A stretch of DNA of 37,350 nucleotides from a virus. Below the pieces are notes generated by a model. The model was not told the DNA's origin, ran no database searches, and saw nothing but the letters and a program-made list of their open reading frames with translations. The DNA is taken from the IMG/VR virus record IMGVR_UViG_3300044641_001438, positions 1-37,350 of that record, one strand, 5' to 3'. The position numbers and the translations under genes are program-made. Numbering within the stretch: the stretch's first letter is position 1; the number at the start of each line of letters is the position of its first letter. This document shows positions 2,887-33,985 of the stretch, piece after piece.

Positions 2887-3906
2887 ATGACTGCAACTGT
2901 AACTTATCTGGGCGAAGTAAATAAGACGGGTGGTCAATCCCCCTCTTACGCCCAACGTACTAACCTCTTCCTGAAGCTCTTCACGGGCGAAGTGTATGAG
3001 GCTTTCCGTAACTCCACTATTGCTAAGGATCTGGTGATGAACCGGACCCTGCGTGGTGGTAAGCAAGCTCAATTCATTCACACTGGCCGTATCTCGGCTG
3101 GTTATCGTACGCCTGGTGTGCCTATCCTCGGTTCGGGCAACCCCCCGGCAGCCGAAACCACCATCGCGCTGGATGACCTGCTGGTGGCATCTGCCTTCGT
3201 TGATAACCTCGACGAAATCATGAGCCAGTATGACATCCGTGGCCCGATTGCCCGTCAGATCGGTCAAAGCCTGGCTGAGTTCTATGATCGCCGTATCTTC
3301 CGCGTTCTGGACAAGGCTTCCTCTGCTTCGGCTGCTGTGACCGGCGAGCCTGGTGGCTTCCAAATCAACCTCGGTGCCAACAAAGAGTATGATGCTCAGG
3401 CCCTGGTTGATGGCTTCTTTGAAGCTGCTGCCCGTCTGGATGAAGTGGCTGCTCCTAAGGATGGCCGTGTGGCTGTTCTGAGCCCCCGCCAATACTACGC
3501 CCTGATCTCTCAGGTCGATACCAACATCCTCAACCGTGAGTATGGTGCTGCCGGTGGTAGCATGAACTCTGGTGATGGTCTCTATGAGATCGCCGGTATC
3601 TCCATCAAGAAGTCCAACAACATCCCCTTCCTGGGTAAGTATGGTTCGGCTTCTGGCGCTGCTATTGATGCTGCTGCCGTGACTGGTGAGAACAACAGCT
3701 ATGGTATTGCTACTGACTTCACCAACAGCTGCGGCCTGATCTTCCACCGTGACGCTGCTGGTGTCGTTGAGGCTATTGGCCCCTCCGTGCAAACCACTGG
3801 CGCCGATACGAAGGTGATCTACCAAGGCGACGTGATCGTGGGCCGTCTGGCCTATGGTTGCGGTGCTGTGCGCGTCGGCGTTGCCGGTGCCTTCCGTAAC
3901 GTTTGA
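2887..3906 (+). CDS. Major capsid protein, T7 gp10A-like
   Basis: The 339-residue product matches T7-like capsid proteins in length (T7 10A is 345 aa) and in landmarks: N-terminal TYLGEVNKTG, the FLKLFTGEVYEAFRNSTIAKDL helix (28-49), GGKQAQFIHTGRI near residue 60, then DDLLVASAFVDNLDEIMSQYDIRG and the C-terminal KVIYQGDVIVGRLAYGCGA. It adopts the HK97 fold and forms the icosahedral shell. Codon choice is richer in CTG, ACC and AAC than in its neighbours, as expected for a very highly expressed gene. It is preceded by a 200-bp control region and followed immediately by hairpins. No T7-type 10B frameshift extension is convincing. Confidence 0.95.
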   Translation: MTATVTYLGEVNKTGGQSPSYAQRTNLFLKLFTGEVYEAFRNSTIAKDLVMNRTLRGGKQAQFIHTGRISAGYRTPGVPILGSGNPPAAETTIALDDLLVASAFVDNLDEIMSQYDIRGPIARQIGQSLAEFYDRRIFRVLDKASSASAAVTGEPGGFQINLGANKEYDAQALVDGFFEAAARLDEVAAPKDGRVAVLSPRQYYALISQVDTNILNREYGAAGGSMNSGDGLYEIAGISIKKSNNIPFLGKYGSASGAAIDAAAVTGENNSYGIATDFTNSCGLIFHRDAAGVVEAIGPSVQTTGADTKVIYQGDVIVGRLAYGCGAVRVGVAGAFRNV

Positions 3907-24602: not shown

Positions 24603-24659
24603 CTGTCATAGGGGTCTAGGATCGTCTCCTTGGCCCCTCCACCCCACAATAGGTATCCT

Positions 24660-26411
24660 ATGCCCAAACAGACCCCAGAGGCCCCTTCTAGGTCCATAGA
24701 GGAGCGTATCTCAAGTTCATTCCCTGTTTTTCTTTCCCTTGTATGGAAGTCGCTAGACCTGCCTCGGCCAACAAGGGCCCAACTTGCCATCGCGGAGTAC
24801 CTTCAAAACGGACCCAAGCGTCTACAAATCCAAGCGTTTCGTGGTCTTGGTAAGTCTTGGATTGCTGCTGCTTTTGTGTTGTGGACACTCTGGAACGACA
24901 GAGACAAGAAGATCCTCGTGGTATCCGCAAGTAAACAACGAGCTGATGACTTTACCATCTTTTGTCAGAAGTGTATCCTTGAGTTTGACTGGATGGTCCA
25001 CATGCGTCCTGTGGATGATGACCAACGGTGGAGCCGTGTGTCCTTCGACATTGCCGGATGTCGCCCTGCCCAGAGCCCCTCAGTCAAGAGTGTGGGTATT
25101 ACTGGCCAGCTTACTGGCTCTCGTGCTGATCTGATTGTCTTTGATGACGTGGAGGTTCCCTCTAACTCAGCAACCGACATGATGCGAGAGAAACTTCTCC
25201 AACTCGTGACGGAAGGGGAATCAGTGTTGACCCCCAAGGGGGACAGCCGTATCGTGTTTTTGGGAACACCGCAGACTACCTTCACCATCTATCGAACCCT
25301 AAGGGAACGGAACTACCGCCCCTTTGTCTGGCCCGCTAGATATCCAAAAAACCTTGTTGGATATGAAGACATTCTTGCTCCACAGTTACAGGGGGACATC
25401 GACACGCAGGGACATGACACCCTGAGCTGGACCCCAACAGATACCCGCTTCTCGGAGATTAACCTTCTTGAACGTGAACAAAGCATGAGTCGTTCAAACT
25501 TCATGCTTCAATTTATGCTGGACACGTCCCTCTCGGACGCCCTCAAGTTCCCCCTCAAGCTCAGCGACTTCTCTGTGATGCCCCTAGACCCCGCTAAGGG
25601 GCCTTCGGACGTGATTTGGGGTGCTGATAAGGAGACCCTCCTTGACCTGCCCGCCGTGGCCCTTCCCGGGGACCGTTGGCATCGACCCAAAAAGGAAGGA
25701 GAGTTCGTTTCCTGGGGAGAGACTATTGTTGCTGTGGACCCCTCTGGTCGCGGAAAGGACGAAACTGTTGCCGTGATCCTCTCACAGATCAATGGCTTCC
25801 TCTTTATTAGGGACATCTTTGCTAGTCAAGACGGATATTCCGACAAAACCCTCTGTGAGATTCTCAGGAGGGCTAAACGATATGGTGCGTCCTCCTGCCT
25901 CATCGAATCTAACTTCGGTGATGGGGCCATCATGGAGCTGATGAAGAAACACGCTCAGGAAATGAAGGTCGGTATGAACTTTGAGGAGGTTCGCGCCACA
26001 ACAAGGAAGGAGGACAGGATTATTGATACCCTGGAGCCCGTCCTCAACCAACATAGATTGATTATTGACCAACGCCTCATTGACTGGGACTACCGGAGTA
26101 ACCCGGACCAAGCCCCTGAGGAACGCCTCCCCAGGATGCTGATGTATCAATTGACGAGAATGTGCCGTGAGAAAGGGGCGGTAAAACATGATGATAGAGT
26201 CGATGCTCTCGCCTTGGGCGTGAAGTACTTTCAGGATGTCCTTGCTATTTCCGCCCAACAGCAGGCCATCGACCATTCCCGACAACAATGGGCAAACATG
26301 GTAGATGGGTTCCTTAACGCACCTACCTTGGCCACAGATCTGCTGGTCGCGGGAAGCACCTTTGACGAGCCCATAACCCACGAAGAAGGACCCATTTTTA
26401 CTTGGATCTAA
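24660..26411 (+). CDS. Large terminase subunit, T7 gp19-like
   Basis: From ATG 24660 the product has 583 residues (T7 gp19: 586). Walker A is FRGLGKS (60-66) and Walker B is LIVFDD (158-163), preceded by the family signature SVKSVGITGQLTGSRAD. The nuclease domain has AVDPSGRGKDE (near residue 360), the ESNFGDG motif and the C-terminal HDDRVDALALG. It is the ATP-driven packaging motor and the nuclease that cuts concatemers. An in-frame TTG at 24630 could add ten residues; the ATG is preferred. It closes the late region. Confidence 0.96.
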   Translation: MPKQTPEAPSRSIEERISSSFPVFLSLVWKSLDLPRPTRAQLAIAEYLQNGPKRLQIQAFRGLGKSWIAAAFVLWTLWNDRDKKILVVSASKQRADDFTIFCQKCILEFDWMVHMRPVDDDQRWSRVSFDIAGCRPAQSPSVKSVGITGQLTGSRADLIVFDDVEVPSNSATDMMREKLLQLVTEGESVLTPKGDSRIVFLGTPQTTFTIYRTLRERNYRPFVWPARYPKNLVGYEDILAPQLQGDIDTQGHDTLSWTPTDTRFSEINLLEREQSMSRSNFMLQFMLDTSLSDALKFPLKLSDFSVMPLDPAKGPSDVIWGADKETLLDLPAVALPGDRWHRPKKEGEFVSWGETIVAVDPSGRGKDETVAVILSQINGFLFIRDIFASQDGYSDKTLCEILRRAKRYGASSCLIESNFGDGAIMELMKKHAQEMKVGMNFEEVRATTRKEDRIIDTLEPVLNQHRLIIDQRLIDWDYRSNPDQAPEERLPRMLMYQLTRMCREKGAVKHDDRVDALALGVKYFQDVLAISAQQQAIDHSRQQWANMVDGFLNAPTLATDLLVAGSTFDEPITHEEGPIFTWI

Positions 26412-26445: not shown

Positions 26446-26465
26446 GAGAAGGTGCTCTTTATTAC
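26446..26465 (+). repeat. 20-bp sequence identical to part of the RNA polymerase gene
   Basis: Bases 26446-26465 (GAGAAGGTGCTC followed by TTTATTAC) recur exactly at 32461-32480, in the same orientation, inside the RNA polymerase gene. Flanking bases do not match. A 20-base identity is unlikely by chance in a sequence of this size. Confidence 0.75.
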
Positions 26466-26515
26466 CCAGGGAAGTGGTGCTCCTTGGGCGTGGAAACAGC
26501 GACAAGCTGAGGGGG

Positions 26516-26742
26516 GAGACCATAGAGGGGGGTCTCTCCTTCCGGTCTTCTCCCTCTCTTAGACCTAGCTCCACAATTAACCATTCCCGTCAACTAGGGC
26601 GCGTACTGCGTCCGCTTTGTAAACCCAGAGGGACGGGTATGGGGTATGGACGGATCATTGGGGATAGGGGCGACCCAATTCCCCAGTGTTTACTAAGCGA
26701 ACGAAGTGAGCGTCCCACTAGCCCAAGACCCTAAAGGGGACG
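26516..26742 (+). other. Series of hairpins downstream of terminase
   Basis: Three perfect short stems lie in order: GAGACC/GGTCTC (26516-26521 with 26531-26536), TGGGGA/TCCCCA (26659-26664 with 26680-26685) and CGTCCC/GGGACG (26711-26716 with 26737-26742). None has a U-tract. They may form a structured 3' leader, processing sites or packaging signals. Individually each could be chance; the series in one non-coding region is suggestive. Confidence 0.45.
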
Positions 26743-26765
26743 ACAAACAAAAGGGGGAAAGGGGG

Positions 26766-26808
26766 TATATATTAGACAGTAGATGCGAAGCCTACTGTTG
26801 GATATATT
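26766..26808. other. Long inverted repeat tipped by GCGAAGC
   Basis: ACAGTAG (26776-26782) pairs with CTACTGT (26792-26798). The bases between are AT then GCGAAGC (26785-26791), a sequence known to make an exceptionally stable DNA mini-hairpin with a GAA loop. Outside, ATATAT (26767-26772) pairs with ATATAT (26802-26807) across three imperfect positions, two of them wobble in RNA. The structure abuts an AT-rich tract and is a good candidate for a cruciform, origin or promoter element. Confidence 0.7.
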
Positions 26809-26879
26809 GTTAATTATCTTAATTAATAATATTAATAATAATATTCTTCTTTATTGTTCTTAGGGGAAGAATGTATAGC
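26807..26879 (+). promoter_or_regulatory. AT-rich tract with two candidate sigma-70 promoters
   Basis: The tract 26802-26860 is almost entirely A and T. Two promoter-like pairs with 17-base spacers are visible: TTGTTA (26807-26812) with TATTAA (26830-26835), and TTATTG (26851-26856) with TATAGC (26874-26879). Either could let host polymerase transcribe thyX at 26994. The same tract could be a DNA-unwinding element. AT richness makes chance matches easy, so confidence is moderate. Confidence 0.45.
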
Positions 26880-26911
26880 GATAGGTAGCGATGTGATACA
26901 TAGCGACCTAT
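26876..26911. repeat. TAGCGA repeats within a 31-bp dyad
   Basis: TAGCGA occurs at 26876, 26886 and 26901. Bases 26881-26894 and 26898-26911 form inverted arms matching at 12 of 14 positions (ATAGGT...ATGT against ACAT...ACCTAT) around GAT. The first repeat overlaps the second candidate -10 element, so the array could be an operator for thyX or an iteron-like initiator site. Confidence 0.65.
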
Positions 26912-26993
26912 TACGATACAGCTGTTATAGAAAGAAAAATATCAATAATAACTATTATTACTAATACTACTAACACTACTGTTTCCTTTAGCA

Positions 26994-27668
26994 ATGGCAC
27001 CCGACATTAAACAACCCTTCGAATCTCCTAACGCTTCTAAGGTACGTCTCATCTGGATCACACCAGCAGCAGAACACACCATTGAGTATTGTGCAAGAGT
27101 CAGTAATCCCAAAGGCCAACAGACGTTGGATACAACAGGGAAGCTACTCAGGTATCTTGTTAATCACAACCATTGGAGTCCGTTTGAGATGGCGAGTGCC
27201 TGCGTAGAGATTAACACAACAAGAGACATCTCAGCACAAATTCTCCGTCACAGGAGCTTCTCGTTTCAGGAGTTCTCTCAGCGGTACGCGTCTACGGTAG
27301 ATGGACTAGGTGGTCTGGAGATTCCGCATCTTCGCCGTCAAGACCTAAAGAACCGTCAGGCTTCCCACGATGACTTAACCCGAGAGGAGACTCAAGCCTT
27401 CTATCGACGCATCTCCAGTGTGTTTGAGGATCTTGAACATCTCTACCAAGAAATGCTATCCTCGGGTATTGCTAAGGAGTCAGCAAGGAAGATTCTTCCG
27501 ATGAACAGTCCTACCCGGCTATACATGTCGGGAACAATCAGGAGCTGGATTCATTACCTGAGTGTGAGGCGTGGTCCGGAAACTCAACTTGAGCATCGCA
27601 TTATTGCTGAACAGATCTATCAAATTCTCAATAAGGAGATGCCTAACCTATGGGAAGTTATCGGGTAA
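26994..27668 (+). CDS. thyX: Flavin-dependent thymidylate synthase ThyX
   Basis: The 224-residue product carries the ThyX signature RHRX7S: Arg85-His86-Arg87 to Ser95 (RHRSFSFQEFS). Other family segments are EYCARVSNP, LVNHNHWSPFEMASACVEIN and LPMNSPTRLYMSGTIRSWIHYL near the C-terminus. ThyX methylates dUMP to dTMP using FAD, NADPH and methylenetetrahydrofolate, supplying thymidine for phage DNA synthesis. It is the first gene after the terminase-side non-coding region, away from the replication block, so it is probably expressed early. It overlaps the next gene by 19 bases. Confidence 0.96.
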   Translation: MAPDIKQPFESPNASKVRLIWITPAAEHTIEYCARVSNPKGQQTLDTTGKLLRYLVNHNHWSPFEMASACVEINTTRDISAQILRHRSFSFQEFSQRYASTVDGLGGLEIPHLRRQDLKNRQASHDDLTREETQAFYRRISSVFEDLEHLYQEMLSSGIAKESARKILPMNSPTRLYMSGTIRSWIHYLSVRRGPETQLEHRIIAEQIYQILNKEMPNLWEVIG

Positions 27669-27961: not shown

Positions 27962-27972
27962 GTGACGTAGCA

Positions 27973-28015
27973 CCTCCGGCCTCTCGGAGGGCCCCTCCTG
28001 AGGCTTCTAGGGGCC
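27973..28015 (+). terminator. Two back-to-back G-C hairpins
   Basis: CCTCCG (27973-27978) pairs with CGGAGG (27985-27990), and GGCCCCT (27990-27996) pairs with AGGGGCC (28009-28015). The stems share only base 27990. They start 12 bases after the preceding stop. There is no U-tract, so they may pause polymerase, stabilise the thyX mRNA or be processed. CATAAATTT is then repeated at 28018 and 28030. Confidence 0.6.
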
Positions 28016-28073
28016 ACCATAAATTTCAACATAAATTTGTGAAGTCTATACGCATGTACGGCGGCGCCAGACT

Positions 28074-28095
28074 CCCCCCATGCCCCCCCTCGCCC
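28074..28095 (-). other. G-quadruplex motif on the minus strand
   Basis: C runs of 6 (28074-28079), 7 (28083-28089) and 3 (28093-28095) give, on the minus strand, at least four GGG tracts with short loops. They sit in a G+C-rich block (about 28058-28120) unlike the surrounding sequence. Such runs can fold into a quadruplex and stall replication or transcription. Confidence 0.5.
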
Positions 28096-28124
28096 GGAGA
28101 AAACGCGGGCGCGCGCGATGGTCC

Positions 28125-28227
28125 GTGTCCAATTCCGTGTCCAAACCGCTGTGGACAGGGCCAAATGCCTTGCTATCACTAGGCTGATCAACTGCTGAAG
28201 ACACAGATACGCAAGCAAATTGGACAC
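28125..28227. repeat. Cluster of GTGTCCAA elements in both orientations
   Basis: GTGTCCAATT (28125-28134) is repeated as GTGTCCAAA 12 bases later (28137-28145). TGGACA, the reverse complement of the core, lies at 28152-28157, and AATTGGACAC (28218-28227) is the exact reverse complement of the first element. Four related sites in 103 bp look like binding sites for a regulatory protein. Confidence 0.55.
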
Positions 28228-28262
28228 AGCAGCAGTACAAATGCACCAGTGCTACATAGGTA

Positions 28263-28302
28263 ACGCGTATGCGTATGATACGCGTGTACTATTTACATAA
28301 AA
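28263..28302 (+). promoter_or_regulatory. ACGCGTAT palindrome beside a -10-like box
   Basis: ACGCGTAT (28263-28270) and ATACGCGT (28278-28285) are perfect inverted arms around a 7-base centre; GCGTAT is also repeated directly inside. TAAAAT (28297-28302) matches the sigma-70 -10 consensus at five of six positions, with the palindrome over its -35 region. TATACGC (28047) and GATACGC (28206) upstream repeat the half-site. It looks like an operator-controlled promoter for the early genes. Confidence 0.45.
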
Positions 28303-28627
28303 TCTGTGCCCTTCGCAATAACGCTTCCTTATTGAGAATGTTAAGAAATCTGCTCGATTCTTGACCATTGGCCTTGGTAGGCTCTAGGTTGCTTGCAACG
28401 GGGAAGACCGGAACGCCACCGGGCAGACTTAACCGCCAGCAGCTCTCAGGGTTGCGGTTTGTTACAGCTCCACCGATCTTAAGCCTGTCAGGCCTTAGGA
28501 TCAGCTCAGCACCTAGAAAACCGAATAACAGGCGCAACAGGCTTAGTAGGTCAATGCTGCCGCACCTATCTTCCCGGTGAACCTTCAGGGACTGGTGTGG
28601 GTTAGAGCAACTGAAAGGGCGCGTCAA
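28289..28627 (-). CDS. Possible minus-strand ORF (112 codons)
   Basis: The frame begins at TTG and has no ATG. The predicted product has a hydrophobic stretch (SIDLLSLLRLLFGFLGAELI) and a more polar end (SNLEPTKANGQESSRFLNIL). Composition is protein-like, but all other genes are on the + strand, there is no good ribosome site, and an overlapping + strand frame is also open. It could be a real small gene, a relic or chance in a leader RNA. Low confidence. Confidence 0.2.
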   Translation of the reverse strand: MTRPFSCSNPHQSLKVHREDRCGSIDLLSLLRLLFGFLGAELILRPDRLKIGGAVTNRNPESCWRLSLPGGVPVFPVASNLEPTKANGQESSRFLNILNKEALLRRAQILCK

Positions 28628-28724
28628 ATTTCTATTCTTTATTGGACAGAATAGCCAGCTATTTTATCAGCGTCGATTCGCTGACTGTCCCATTGCCTGA
28701 CACTGAGTCGGGCACACATTCACA

Positions 28725-31648: not shown

Positions 31649-33985
31649 ATGGCAACAACTGAGCAACTCGCCCGACAATTACAGCGAGAACTTGATGCAA
31701 GGAGCGAGGCAATCAAACGCCTCAGAGAGAGAACTAGAAACGCGGAAGAACGCTGTTATGCTAGCTCCACGGTTTATGGATCAGCCTTTATTAACAAGGG
31801 GCTCCAACTTATCACTGAGGAGATCAGCAGTAAACTCCACCGTGTCAGTCAAGGATGGGTTCAGGAAAAGGCTCAGGCTGTCTTACCTATCAAGGATTGT
31901 GACCCTTCTGTGTTGGCTTTGATCACCGCAAAGGGAGTTATTGATATTCTTGGGGTGAGAAGGATTGAACACCTTACCTACCAGGCAGCTACAACTCACA
32001 TCGGAACGTTGGTCTACCATCAAGTGATGTTGGATCAATTTTGCGGTAAGCACCCTGAGTTATTTAACAAGGCAAGACTTCACATCCACGATCACAAAGG
32101 TTATTCCTACAAGGTACAACGTTACCGGGCGGTGATGCGTCGTAATGATGTTGAGCCTTTGCGGTGGCCCACCAGTGTTAGGCACCTTGTTGGAGGATGG
32201 CTGTTGGATCGGCTGTCGGTTGCTACGGGGTGGGTAGCCACCAGAATGACCGCCAAGGGGCCCAATGATAGGGTGACCTACCTGGTATACCAACCAGAGT
32301 TTTTAAGGGCCAAGGAGGCGCTCCTAGCGCAGGCTGAGGCGTTTGCTGGCTGTATGTGGCCCATGTTGTGTGAGCCGAACGACTGGACGGAGGAGTTTAA
32401 GGGGGGTTACCTCACGAACGACCTGAGGAAGCTGACAAGGCTGATCAGGACTAGGATTCCGAGAAGGTGCTCTTTATTACAGGACAGCAAGGCCCTCGTC
32501 ATGCTGAACCTGCTCCAGAAGGTGCCCTATCGAATCAACGACAGGGTTCTTGAGCTGGCGAACTTCTGTATGGAACACCGCATCACTGTGGGTAAGTTCC
32601 GAGCGGAGGAGCCTACGCCCCCACCGCCAAAGCCAGAGCCATGGGAGACAGCCTCGGAAGAGGACAAGATCTCTTATCGGAGAATGAGAACTGAGATTGA
32701 AGATCAGAACTCAGCTCTGGCACAGAAGAATTACAGGACAACTGAAGCCCTGTATGTAGCCAACAAATACAAAGGAGATACCTTCTGGATTCCCTGGTCA
32801 TTTGACTTTAGGGGAAGGGTTTATCCAATACCGACTAGCCTTAGTCCTCAAGGAACAGACTTTGACAAGAGTCTTATTTATTTTCAAGAGGAAGGGCCAG
32901 TTAATGAATGGTGGTTAGCCTTTCAGGTTGCTACTACTTATGGACTGGATAAAGCACCAATGGAGGAGAGAATTGATTGGGTCGTTAAGAACCATGATTT
33001 CTTGAGTCATCTTGCTAATGATCCTGAGGGAACAATCTCTGAGTGGTCATCAGTAGAAGAACCTTGGTGTTTTATTGCTGCTGTGTTGGAGTATGATCAA
33101 TGTGTTATCAAGGGAATCAAGAAGACATCTGGTCTTCCTGTGTCTGTTGATGCTACTTGTTCTGGTCTCCAACATTTGTCAGCATTGGCATTGGATAGGA
33201 CTGCTGCTGAAATGGTTAATGTTGTTCCCACGGACAAACCTTCTGACGGGTATAAGATTGTCGCGGAAAAGGCTAAGGAAATTCTTCCTGAGCATCTTCA
33301 CGATCACATCACCAGAAAAGTAACCAAACGCACTGTCATGACAACGCCTTACGGGGTGACGGAGAACAGTGCTAGGGATTACATTCGTCAGGAACTCAAG
33401 GGCATTGAACTTGAGAAGGGTGAGTTACAAAAGATAGTTAAAGCTATCTACCGTTATGGTGTGAGGAAAGTATTTGATGGTCCTTGTCGATCAATGGAGT
33501 TTATCCAAAAGGTTGCTGGGGAACGCATCAAATCAGGAGCAACAACACTTGAGTGGGTCACTCCATCTGGATTCCCAGTTGTTCAAGAGTATCGTCGTAA
33601 CGAGACTGAACGTATCAACACTAAGTTACTTGGTCAACGAGTACAGACTTGGTTGTTGAAGGAATGGGAACAACGACAGATTGACCTACAAAAAGCTAAG
33701 ACGGCAGCAAGTCCTAATCTTATTCACAGTCTGGATGCTGCTCTGCTTCATCTGGTCTTTGCTGAATGGGACAGGCCCTTTACCGTGATACATGACTGTG
33801 TGTTGGGTCGTTCCTGCGACATGGATGACATGGGCAGTGCGATCCGGGACAAGTTCGTCGAGATCTACTCACAGCCAGTTCTTAAGAATTGGTCCAGGCA
33901 ACTGGGGGTTGACTTTGATGAGAGTGTCATGTTGAATACGCTTGACATCAACGATGTCCAACAATCCTCCTACTTCTTTTGCTGA
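31649..33985 (+). CDS. Single-subunit phage RNA polymerase, T7 gp1-like
   Basis: The product is 778 residues (T7: 883). Landmarks align with T7: DFRGRVYP at 386-393; catalytic Asp501 in VDATCSGLQH (T7 Asp537); Lys560 to Tyr568 in KRTVMTTPYG (T7 Lys631 to Tyr639, same spacing); catalytic Asp716 in IHDC (T7 Asp812). The specificity-loop region keeps Arg655 and Asn657 (T7 Arg746 and Asn748), while positions matching Arg756 and Gln758 appear to be Val665 and Thr667. The enzyme transcribes middle and late genes from phage promoters. Its stop overlaps the next start. Confidence 0.97.
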   Translation: MATTEQLARQLQRELDARSEAIKRLRERTRNAEERCYASSTVYGSAFINKGLQLITEEISSKLHRVSQGWVQEKAQAVLPIKDCDPSVLALITAKGVIDILGVRRIEHLTYQAATTHIGTLVYHQVMLDQFCGKHPELFNKARLHIHDHKGYSYKVQRYRAVMRRNDVEPLRWPTSVRHLVGGWLLDRLSVATGWVATRMTAKGPNDRVTYLVYQPEFLRAKEALLAQAEAFAGCMWPMLCEPNDWTEEFKGGYLTNDLRKLTRLIRTRIPRRCSLLQDSKALVMLNLLQKVPYRINDRVLELANFCMEHRITVGKFRAEEPTPPPPKPEPWETASEEDKISYRRMRTEIEDQNSALAQKNYRTTEALYVANKYKGDTFWIPWSFDFRGRVYPIPTSLSPQGTDFDKSLIYFQEEGPVNEWWLAFQVATTYGLDKAPMEERIDWVVKNHDFLSHLANDPEGTISEWSSVEEPWCFIAAVLEYDQCVIKGIKKTSGLPVSVDATCSGLQHLSALALDRTAAEMVNVVPTDKPSDGYKIVAEKAKEILPEHLHDHITRKVTKRTVMTTPYGVTENSARDYIRQELKGIELEKGELQKIVKAIYRYGVRKVFDGPCRSMEFIQKVAGERIKSGATTLEWVTPSGFPVVQEYRRNETERINTKLLGQRVQTWLLKEWEQRQIDLQKAKTAASPNLIHSLDAALLHLVFAEWDRPFTVIHDCVLGRSCDMDDMGSAIRDKFVEIYSQPVLKNWSRQLGVDFDESVMLNTLDINDVQQSSYFFC
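32461..32480 (+). repeat. Second copy of the 20-bp repeat, inside RNA polymerase
   Basis: This copy is identical to 26446-26465. Here it encodes part of RRCSLLQ near residue 272 of the polymerase, so it is constrained by coding. The direction of copying, if any, is more likely from this gene to the terminase-side region. Confidence 0.75.

Follow-up and report, generated by a model that had tools for sequence, protein, structure and literature searches.

A hairpin, termed hairpin A, lies between terL and thyX of a T7-like cyanopodovirus; it is real and, judging from the comparison of related sequences, is kept by selection. Its structure and covariation, its fixed genomic place, a self-matching promoter-like pair and the strand bias of its tip were observed directly. 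We regard it as moderately probable that hairpin A is an RNA stem-loop module of the thyX leader transcribed from a predicted promoter, P2, with a function in stability or processing; the support for this reading is comparative throughout. We infer that P2 is active in the window phage, that its transcript reaches hairpin A, and that the role of the hairpin is in RNA stability or processing. This layout corrects the tempting reading of the site as a DNA origin and offers a testable alternative.

Gene context and features

The window, i.e., the whole stretch of DNA that was analyzed, is a linear IMG/VR record of 37,350 bp and represents only a part of a viral genome. An ORF scan revealed the gene content of a T7-like cyanopodovirus, with genes for a scaffold, the major head protein, tail and internal virion proteins, a tail fibre, TerL, ThyX, a T7-type RNA polymerase, a Gp2.5-like SSB and a primase/helicase. 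DNA maturase B is followed by thyX also in P60, S-SRP01 and S-CBP4. At 3811–3900, where the gene for the major head protein has its 3′ end, lies the local hairpin that ranks second in strength within the window. The features of importance are the following:

24630–26411, plus strand: terL, large terminase subunit, in the same order as in the isolates
26446–26465, plus strand: P2, predicted phage RNA polymerase promoter GAGAAGGTGCTCTTTATTAC, with an exact copy in the phage's own RNA polymerase gene, both at the places known from Syn5
26465–26488, plus strand: 5′ hairpin with the loop AGTGGTGC and covarying arms, located where the P2 transcript should begin
26509–26556, plus strand: strongest local hairpin in the window, placed like a terminator downstream of P2
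26696–26712, plus strand: core AGCGAACGAAGTGAGCG of a class-B GNA hairpin; relatives have AGCGAGCGAAGCGAGCG, from which it differs by compensated changes
26746–26765, plus strand: purine-rich tract (95% purine in the window) directly preceding hairpin A
26766–26808, plus strand: hairpin A, characterized by sequence, conservation, fold energy and covariation
26806–26855, no strand assigned: AT tract with 92% AT, more than in any other 50 bp of the window, adjoining hairpin A
26873–26919, plus strand: second covarying dyad, GTAT..ATAGGT..ATGTGATACAT..ACCTAT..ATAC
26994–27668, plus strand: thyX
31649–33985, plus strand: gene for the T7-type single-subunit RNA polymerase (phrog_414, E 5e-206)
32461–32480, plus strand: P1, second copy of the promoter sequence, inside the RNA polymerase gene at offset 812

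Structure and covariation of hairpin A

The initial annotation had described a hairpin with a GCGAAGC tip, 7-bp perfect arms and AT-rich arms, and all of these are present. The tip occupies 26785–26791, the inner arms ACAGTAG (26776–26782) and CTACTGT (26792–26798) pair perfectly over 7 bp, and the AT-rich outer arms are at 26767–26772 and 26802–26807. What had been missed is an unpaired 2-nt bulge, AT (26783–26784), between the left inner arm and the tip, and an internal loop of about 3 × 3 nt, possibly containing a T.G pair, that splits the inner from the outer stem. The adjoining AT-rich tract and the second dyad, to which the annotation had also pointed, are both real.

The fold energy of hairpin A is modest. 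As DNA it has a z-score of −2.07, and 6 of 200 shuffles were equally good; as RNA the z-score is −1.67, with 14 of 200 shuffles equally good. The heptamer GCGAAGC is not rare, as it was observed once in the window versus three expected occurrences. Hairpin A is the sole C(GNA)G-tipped hairpin of the window with at least 8 pairs. Conservation raises hairpin A above chance.

Hairpin A is known from about 30 IMG/VR contigs. The exact 24-mer GACAGTAGATGCGAAGCCTACTGT is present in 20 IMG/VR stretches, and about 10 further contigs have changed arms around the unchanged tip ATGCGAAGC. In one variant, the inner arms are ATAGTAG/CTACTAT and the outer arms ACATAT/ATATGT; in a second variant, they are ACATGAG/CTCATGT and ATATGT/ACATAT, respectively. 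In every contig in which both neighbours are visible, the hairpin is located between terL and thyX. A search of GenBank phages yielded no match to the region. An attachment site or host repeat was ruled out, because none of 84,980 bacterial and archaeal genomes contains the 21-mer core.

An alignment of 14 distinct sequences was used to quantify covariation. Pairing was found in 99% of the cells, with one contig (L109) misaligned by two columns in the outer stem, so that its real outer pairs went uncounted. Five pairs had changed on both sides with pairing kept, a number reached by 0 of 500 shuffles; as many contigs are closely related, sequence counts are not event counts, and the stem of hairpin A exists in about four states. 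When the partners were slid against each other as a control, at most one pair had a two-sided change. The 9-nt tip ATGCGAAGC never varies among the 14 sequences. The compensatory changes together with the invariant tip therefore show that the folded strand is under selection. A comparison with relatives for exactly such changes had been proposed in the initial annotation, and its expectation that stem and tip are kept was borne out.

When the window was scanned against Rfam, no family reached its gathering score. On the plus strand, a GC-rich stem with an immediate T run was not found at hairpin A, and an intrinsic terminator was dropped since the T run is missing. A leader peptide starting at a loop ATG was also dropped, because a stop codon follows within a few codons in relatives (e.g., L083).

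A self-matching promoter pair

The promoter of the Syn5 RNA polymerase has been defined biochemically, and two promoters were reported, one of them in the polymerase gene (PMC3950665). In the Syn5 genome, ATTGGGCACCCGTAA has exactly two copies, one in the RNA polymerase gene (offset 809) and one 8 bp after terL, before thyX. The window has the same arrangement. The 20-mer of P2 begins 35 bp past the end of terL and recurs only once in this part of the genome, as P1 in the RNA polymerase gene.

A self-matching pair of leader and polymerase gene copies, 13–23 nt in length, was detected in 18 of 20 phages, i.e., the window and 17 others. These include P60 (21 nt), S-CBP4 (21 nt), 13 IMG/VR contigs besides the window, and S-SRP01, whose 13-nt match is within the range of shuffling (maximum 14) and was counted solely for its place. 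For two of the 20 (L097 and L171), no self-matching pair was found. The copy in the polymerase gene is always at offset 808–815, and the sequence of the pair differs from phage to phage. Each leader copy matches the polymerase gene of its own phage; with the polymerase genes of other phages it shares only about 10 nt, except for close relatives. On this basis, P2 is very likely a promoter of the phage RNA polymerase, as predicted for the window phage from its sequence. A guide RNA as explanation for the shared 20-mer was dropped, because both places are those of the Syn5 promoters.

The T7-like cyanophage clade thus appears to keep two self-matching promoter copies, one within the gene of the polymerase and the other following terL, the latter with a long structured leader downstream that is rich in exchangeable GNA hairpins of fixed strand. 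To our knowledge, Syn5 is the only cyanophage for which the polymerase promoter has been worked out biochemically, and the self-match rule is a way to predict such promoters from the sequence alone.

Directly after the promoter follows the hairpin with the AGTGGTGC loop. The covariation of its arms extends as far as Syn5 and P60, and on the plus strand it has G.T pairs but lacks A.C pairs. The place matching 26465–26556 is occupied by a terminator-like hairpin with a T-rich tail in P60, S-CBP4 and Syn5, so that a short RNA of about 75–110 nt may be another product of P2.

Exchangeable GNA hairpins in the leaders

The leaders between terL and thyX were compared in 59 cases (L082–L171 and the window). 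Hairpin A is present in 20 of them and missing in 39. The latter have other hairpins in the same place, e.g., AAGCGAGCGAAGCGAGCGTC (class B) or TATATAATGCGGAGCGTAGCGGAGCTTATATT (class C), so that hairpin A and classes B and C are apical hairpins swapped on a conserved base. A stringent scan of the leaders without hairpin A revealed no other GNA hairpins, because classes B and C carry purine mismatches, and counting the word GCGNAGC was more useful. This word was counted 117 times on the transcribed strand versus a single time on the opposite one, a ratio that includes related copies of perhaps at least six module types and does not represent 117 independent events; about 5 words were expected in shuffled leaders. 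The variable position is A, G or T, and never C. At least one GCGNAGC word is found in 56 of the 59 leaders. The initial annotation had regarded relatives with the same gene order but without stem and tip as evidence against its reading: such relatives do exist with respect to hairpin A, yet 36 of the 39 contain other GCGNAGC words. The window has a class-B copy as well, with the compensated tip ACGAAGT (26696–26712). Among the isolates, S-SRP01 is the closest one found whose leader contains a class-B GNA hairpin. P60 has only about 130 bp from terL to thyX and lacks such a module. As other GNA-tipped hairpins can be exchanged for hairpin A in the same place, the presence of a GNA stem-loop, and not the exact sequence of hairpin A, seems to be needed.

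These exchanges might also indicate a mobile hairpin module that persists because phages exchange it, and that non-coding DNA tolerates although it does nothing for the phage. The replacement of different GNA hairpins by each other fits this idea, as does the scattering of similar class-B cores through unrelated bacteria. However, the compensatory changes and the invariant 9-nt tip reveal selection after insertion, and the orientation is fixed and the distance to thyX nearly constant, so that we judge a functionless module to be quite unlikely. The class-B core AAGCGARCGAAGYGAGCGTC was found in 33 stretches (L217–L249) from unrelated bacteria, none of them titled cyanobacterial, and occurs several times in one Clostridia genome and in one Fimbriiglobus genome. 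The bacterial copies are probably independent dispersed palindromes.

The strand bias also bears on the function as DNA that had been proposed in the initial annotation, i.e., a hairpin extruded from supercoiled DNA that is recognized as a promoter of the N4 virion polymerase type or as an origin as in single-strand phages. d(GCGAAGC) is a known, very stable DNA mini-hairpin, and stem and tip are indeed conserved. However, the orientation of the tip is tied to transcription (117:1), the stem is broken by the internal loop and the AT bulge, and the window has a single copy, whereas several hairpins ahead of early genes are expected for N4-type promoters. Furthermore, neither an N4-type virion RNA polymerase nor a rolling-circle initiator was found among the ORFs scanned in this partial genome, which instead encodes T7-like internal virion proteins and a T7-type RNA polymerase. 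Beyond the tip sequence, the extruded-DNA promoter is unsupported, and we consider extruded DNA highly improbable. The proposed mechanism, in which an extruded hairpin serves as an origin, an initiator site or an early promoter, is not supported. Of the promoter idea, it remains that a predicted phage promoter does lie in the same non-coding region, but 300 bp upstream and for a single-subunit polymerase of the T7 type.

Folding of the leader as RNA

Hairpin A lies about 300 nt downstream of P2 and about 210 nt upstream of thyX. Its position behind P2 leads to the expectation that it is part of the RNA leader, and the GNA tips, whose orientation is fixed with respect to transcription, also point to an RNA leader. 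In the 20 leaders with hairpin A, its distance from the 5′ hairpin is 193–322 nt. The leader folds better than its shuffles, with a z-score of −5.0 in the window and a mean of −4.6 in 29 relatives, compared to +0.8 to −3.7 for 17 control stretches of the window. An additional conserved stem at 26584–26640, TTCCCGTC...GACGGGTA, is shared by many relatives within the clade. The covarying leader, which has no match in Rfam, is a candidate for a structured RNA.

To separate RNA from DNA folding, one-sided changes of the G.T and A.C types were counted, a test that is informative for the 5′ part of the leader only. In this part, the ratio of G.T to A.C was 118:74, which favours RNA folding. Downstream of 26750, the ratio was 166:147, and RNA and DNA folding are not separated there. 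In hairpin A itself, one G.T-type change (L213/L214) and zero A.C changes were present.

Together, these results suggest the following course of events. The T7-type phage RNA polymerase would start at P2, directly after terL, and the transcript would run into thyX with an untranslated leader of about 530 nt. Hairpin A would act as RNA, forming a stable stem-loop with a C(GAA)G tip that is flanked by a purine-rich and an AU-rich single-stranded stretch. The stem-loop might protect the thyX message or set a processing site, comparable to the intergenic RNase III hairpins of T7. Some observations argue against this leader RNA: the terminator-like hairpin just past P2 could stop most transcripts before hairpin A is reached; P60, with its short terL–thyX region, manages without the module; and the z-scores are similar for both strands of the leader, in line with the nearly balanced changes around hairpin A.

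Elements flanking hairpin A

The 20-nt purine tract immediately before hairpin A has a mean purine content of 86% in the 20 leaders, and the AT tract behind it is conserved in about 37 relatives. Both might belong to a right-end replication or packaging region similar to phiOR of T7, a phage promoter that lies to the right of terL and close to the right end of the genome. In this case, transcription from P2 would generate an RNA–DNA hybrid on the purine tract, hairpin A and the AT tract would aid duplex opening, and the RNA would prime DNA synthesis, or transcription would assist concatemer processing. The place of P2, right of terL and near the right end, is in agreement with this possibility, as is the distance of only 1.4 kb between the terL-side promoter of Syn5 and the mapped end. 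With P2 upstream, the two tracts are reminiscent of a transcription-primed origin of the T7 type, but P2 and the AT tract are about 340 nt apart, more than in T7, and the AT tract is absent in the isolates checked (Syn5, P60, S-SRP01 and S-CBP4). In addition, there is no sharp switch in GC skew at the site, and contig ends do not cluster at hairpin A. A phiOR-like region appears unlikely.

A genome end or terminal repeat at hairpin A was dropped for the same lack of clustered contig ends. In P-SSP7, the right terminal repeat follows talC/thyX (PMC3350473), and the same is true for Syn5. Therefore, a repeat is expected downstream of thyX, at 27962–28720, and not at hairpin A. A non-coding stretch is present there, behind thyX and a small ORF, and, by analogy with P-SSP7 and Syn5, it is the likely site of the terminal repeat and early promoters.

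The base of the second dyad is kept via compensating changes (ATAGGT/ACCTAT, ATATGT/ACATAT and AGATGT/ACATCT), and its apical part is exchanged between relatives. In L158, a frame resembling a NUMOD4/HNH homing endonuclease was recognized by eye between this dyad and thyX. Downstream of the dyad, at 26923–26934, a conserved TGTTATAGAAAG has the look of the extended −10 region of a host thyX promoter. The region could accordingly be read as a thyX promoter for the host polymerase, with the dyads as operators. However, a consensus scan did not find a sigma-70-type site, and the change of arm sequences with pairing kept argues against an operator that is read as duplex sequence, making a host promoter region very unlikely.

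Comparison with known systems

The promoters of the N4 virion RNA polymerase consist of a small hairpin with a three-base purine-rich loop. Hairpin A is likewise small and has such a loop, but it occurs in one copy, is not at a transcription start, and no virion polymerase was found. T7 phiOR and P2 have in common that both lie to the right of terL and close to the right end of the genome. In contrast to phiOR, P2 is followed by a structured leader of hundreds of nucleotides and thyX, and a role in replication or packaging is putative. The PeSL cassettes of T4-type phages are intergenic stem-loops that are shuffled as modules between related phages. The modular exchange of intergenic stem-loops is the same here, but hairpin A is confined to a single fixed locus in T7-like phages, and no promoter was shown to travel with it.

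The RNase III processing hairpins of T7 lie between the genes of a transcript made by the phage polymerase. Hairpin A resembles them in its irregular two-part stem with an internal loop, a likeness seen in shape alone. It differs from them in its conserved C(GNA)G tip and in the exchange of modules among relatives.

For the promoter pair, the comparison is with Syn5. The promoter sequence differs, as it is self-matching in each phage, and Syn5 has neither the GCGAAGC hairpin nor the AT tract. The start at the Syn5 promoter has been demonstrated (PMC3950665), whereas the pair of the window is predicted from sequence. In both phages, two copies are present, in the RNA polymerase gene at about 810 and just after terL, and the latter is followed by a covarying hairpin with the AGTGGTGC loop.
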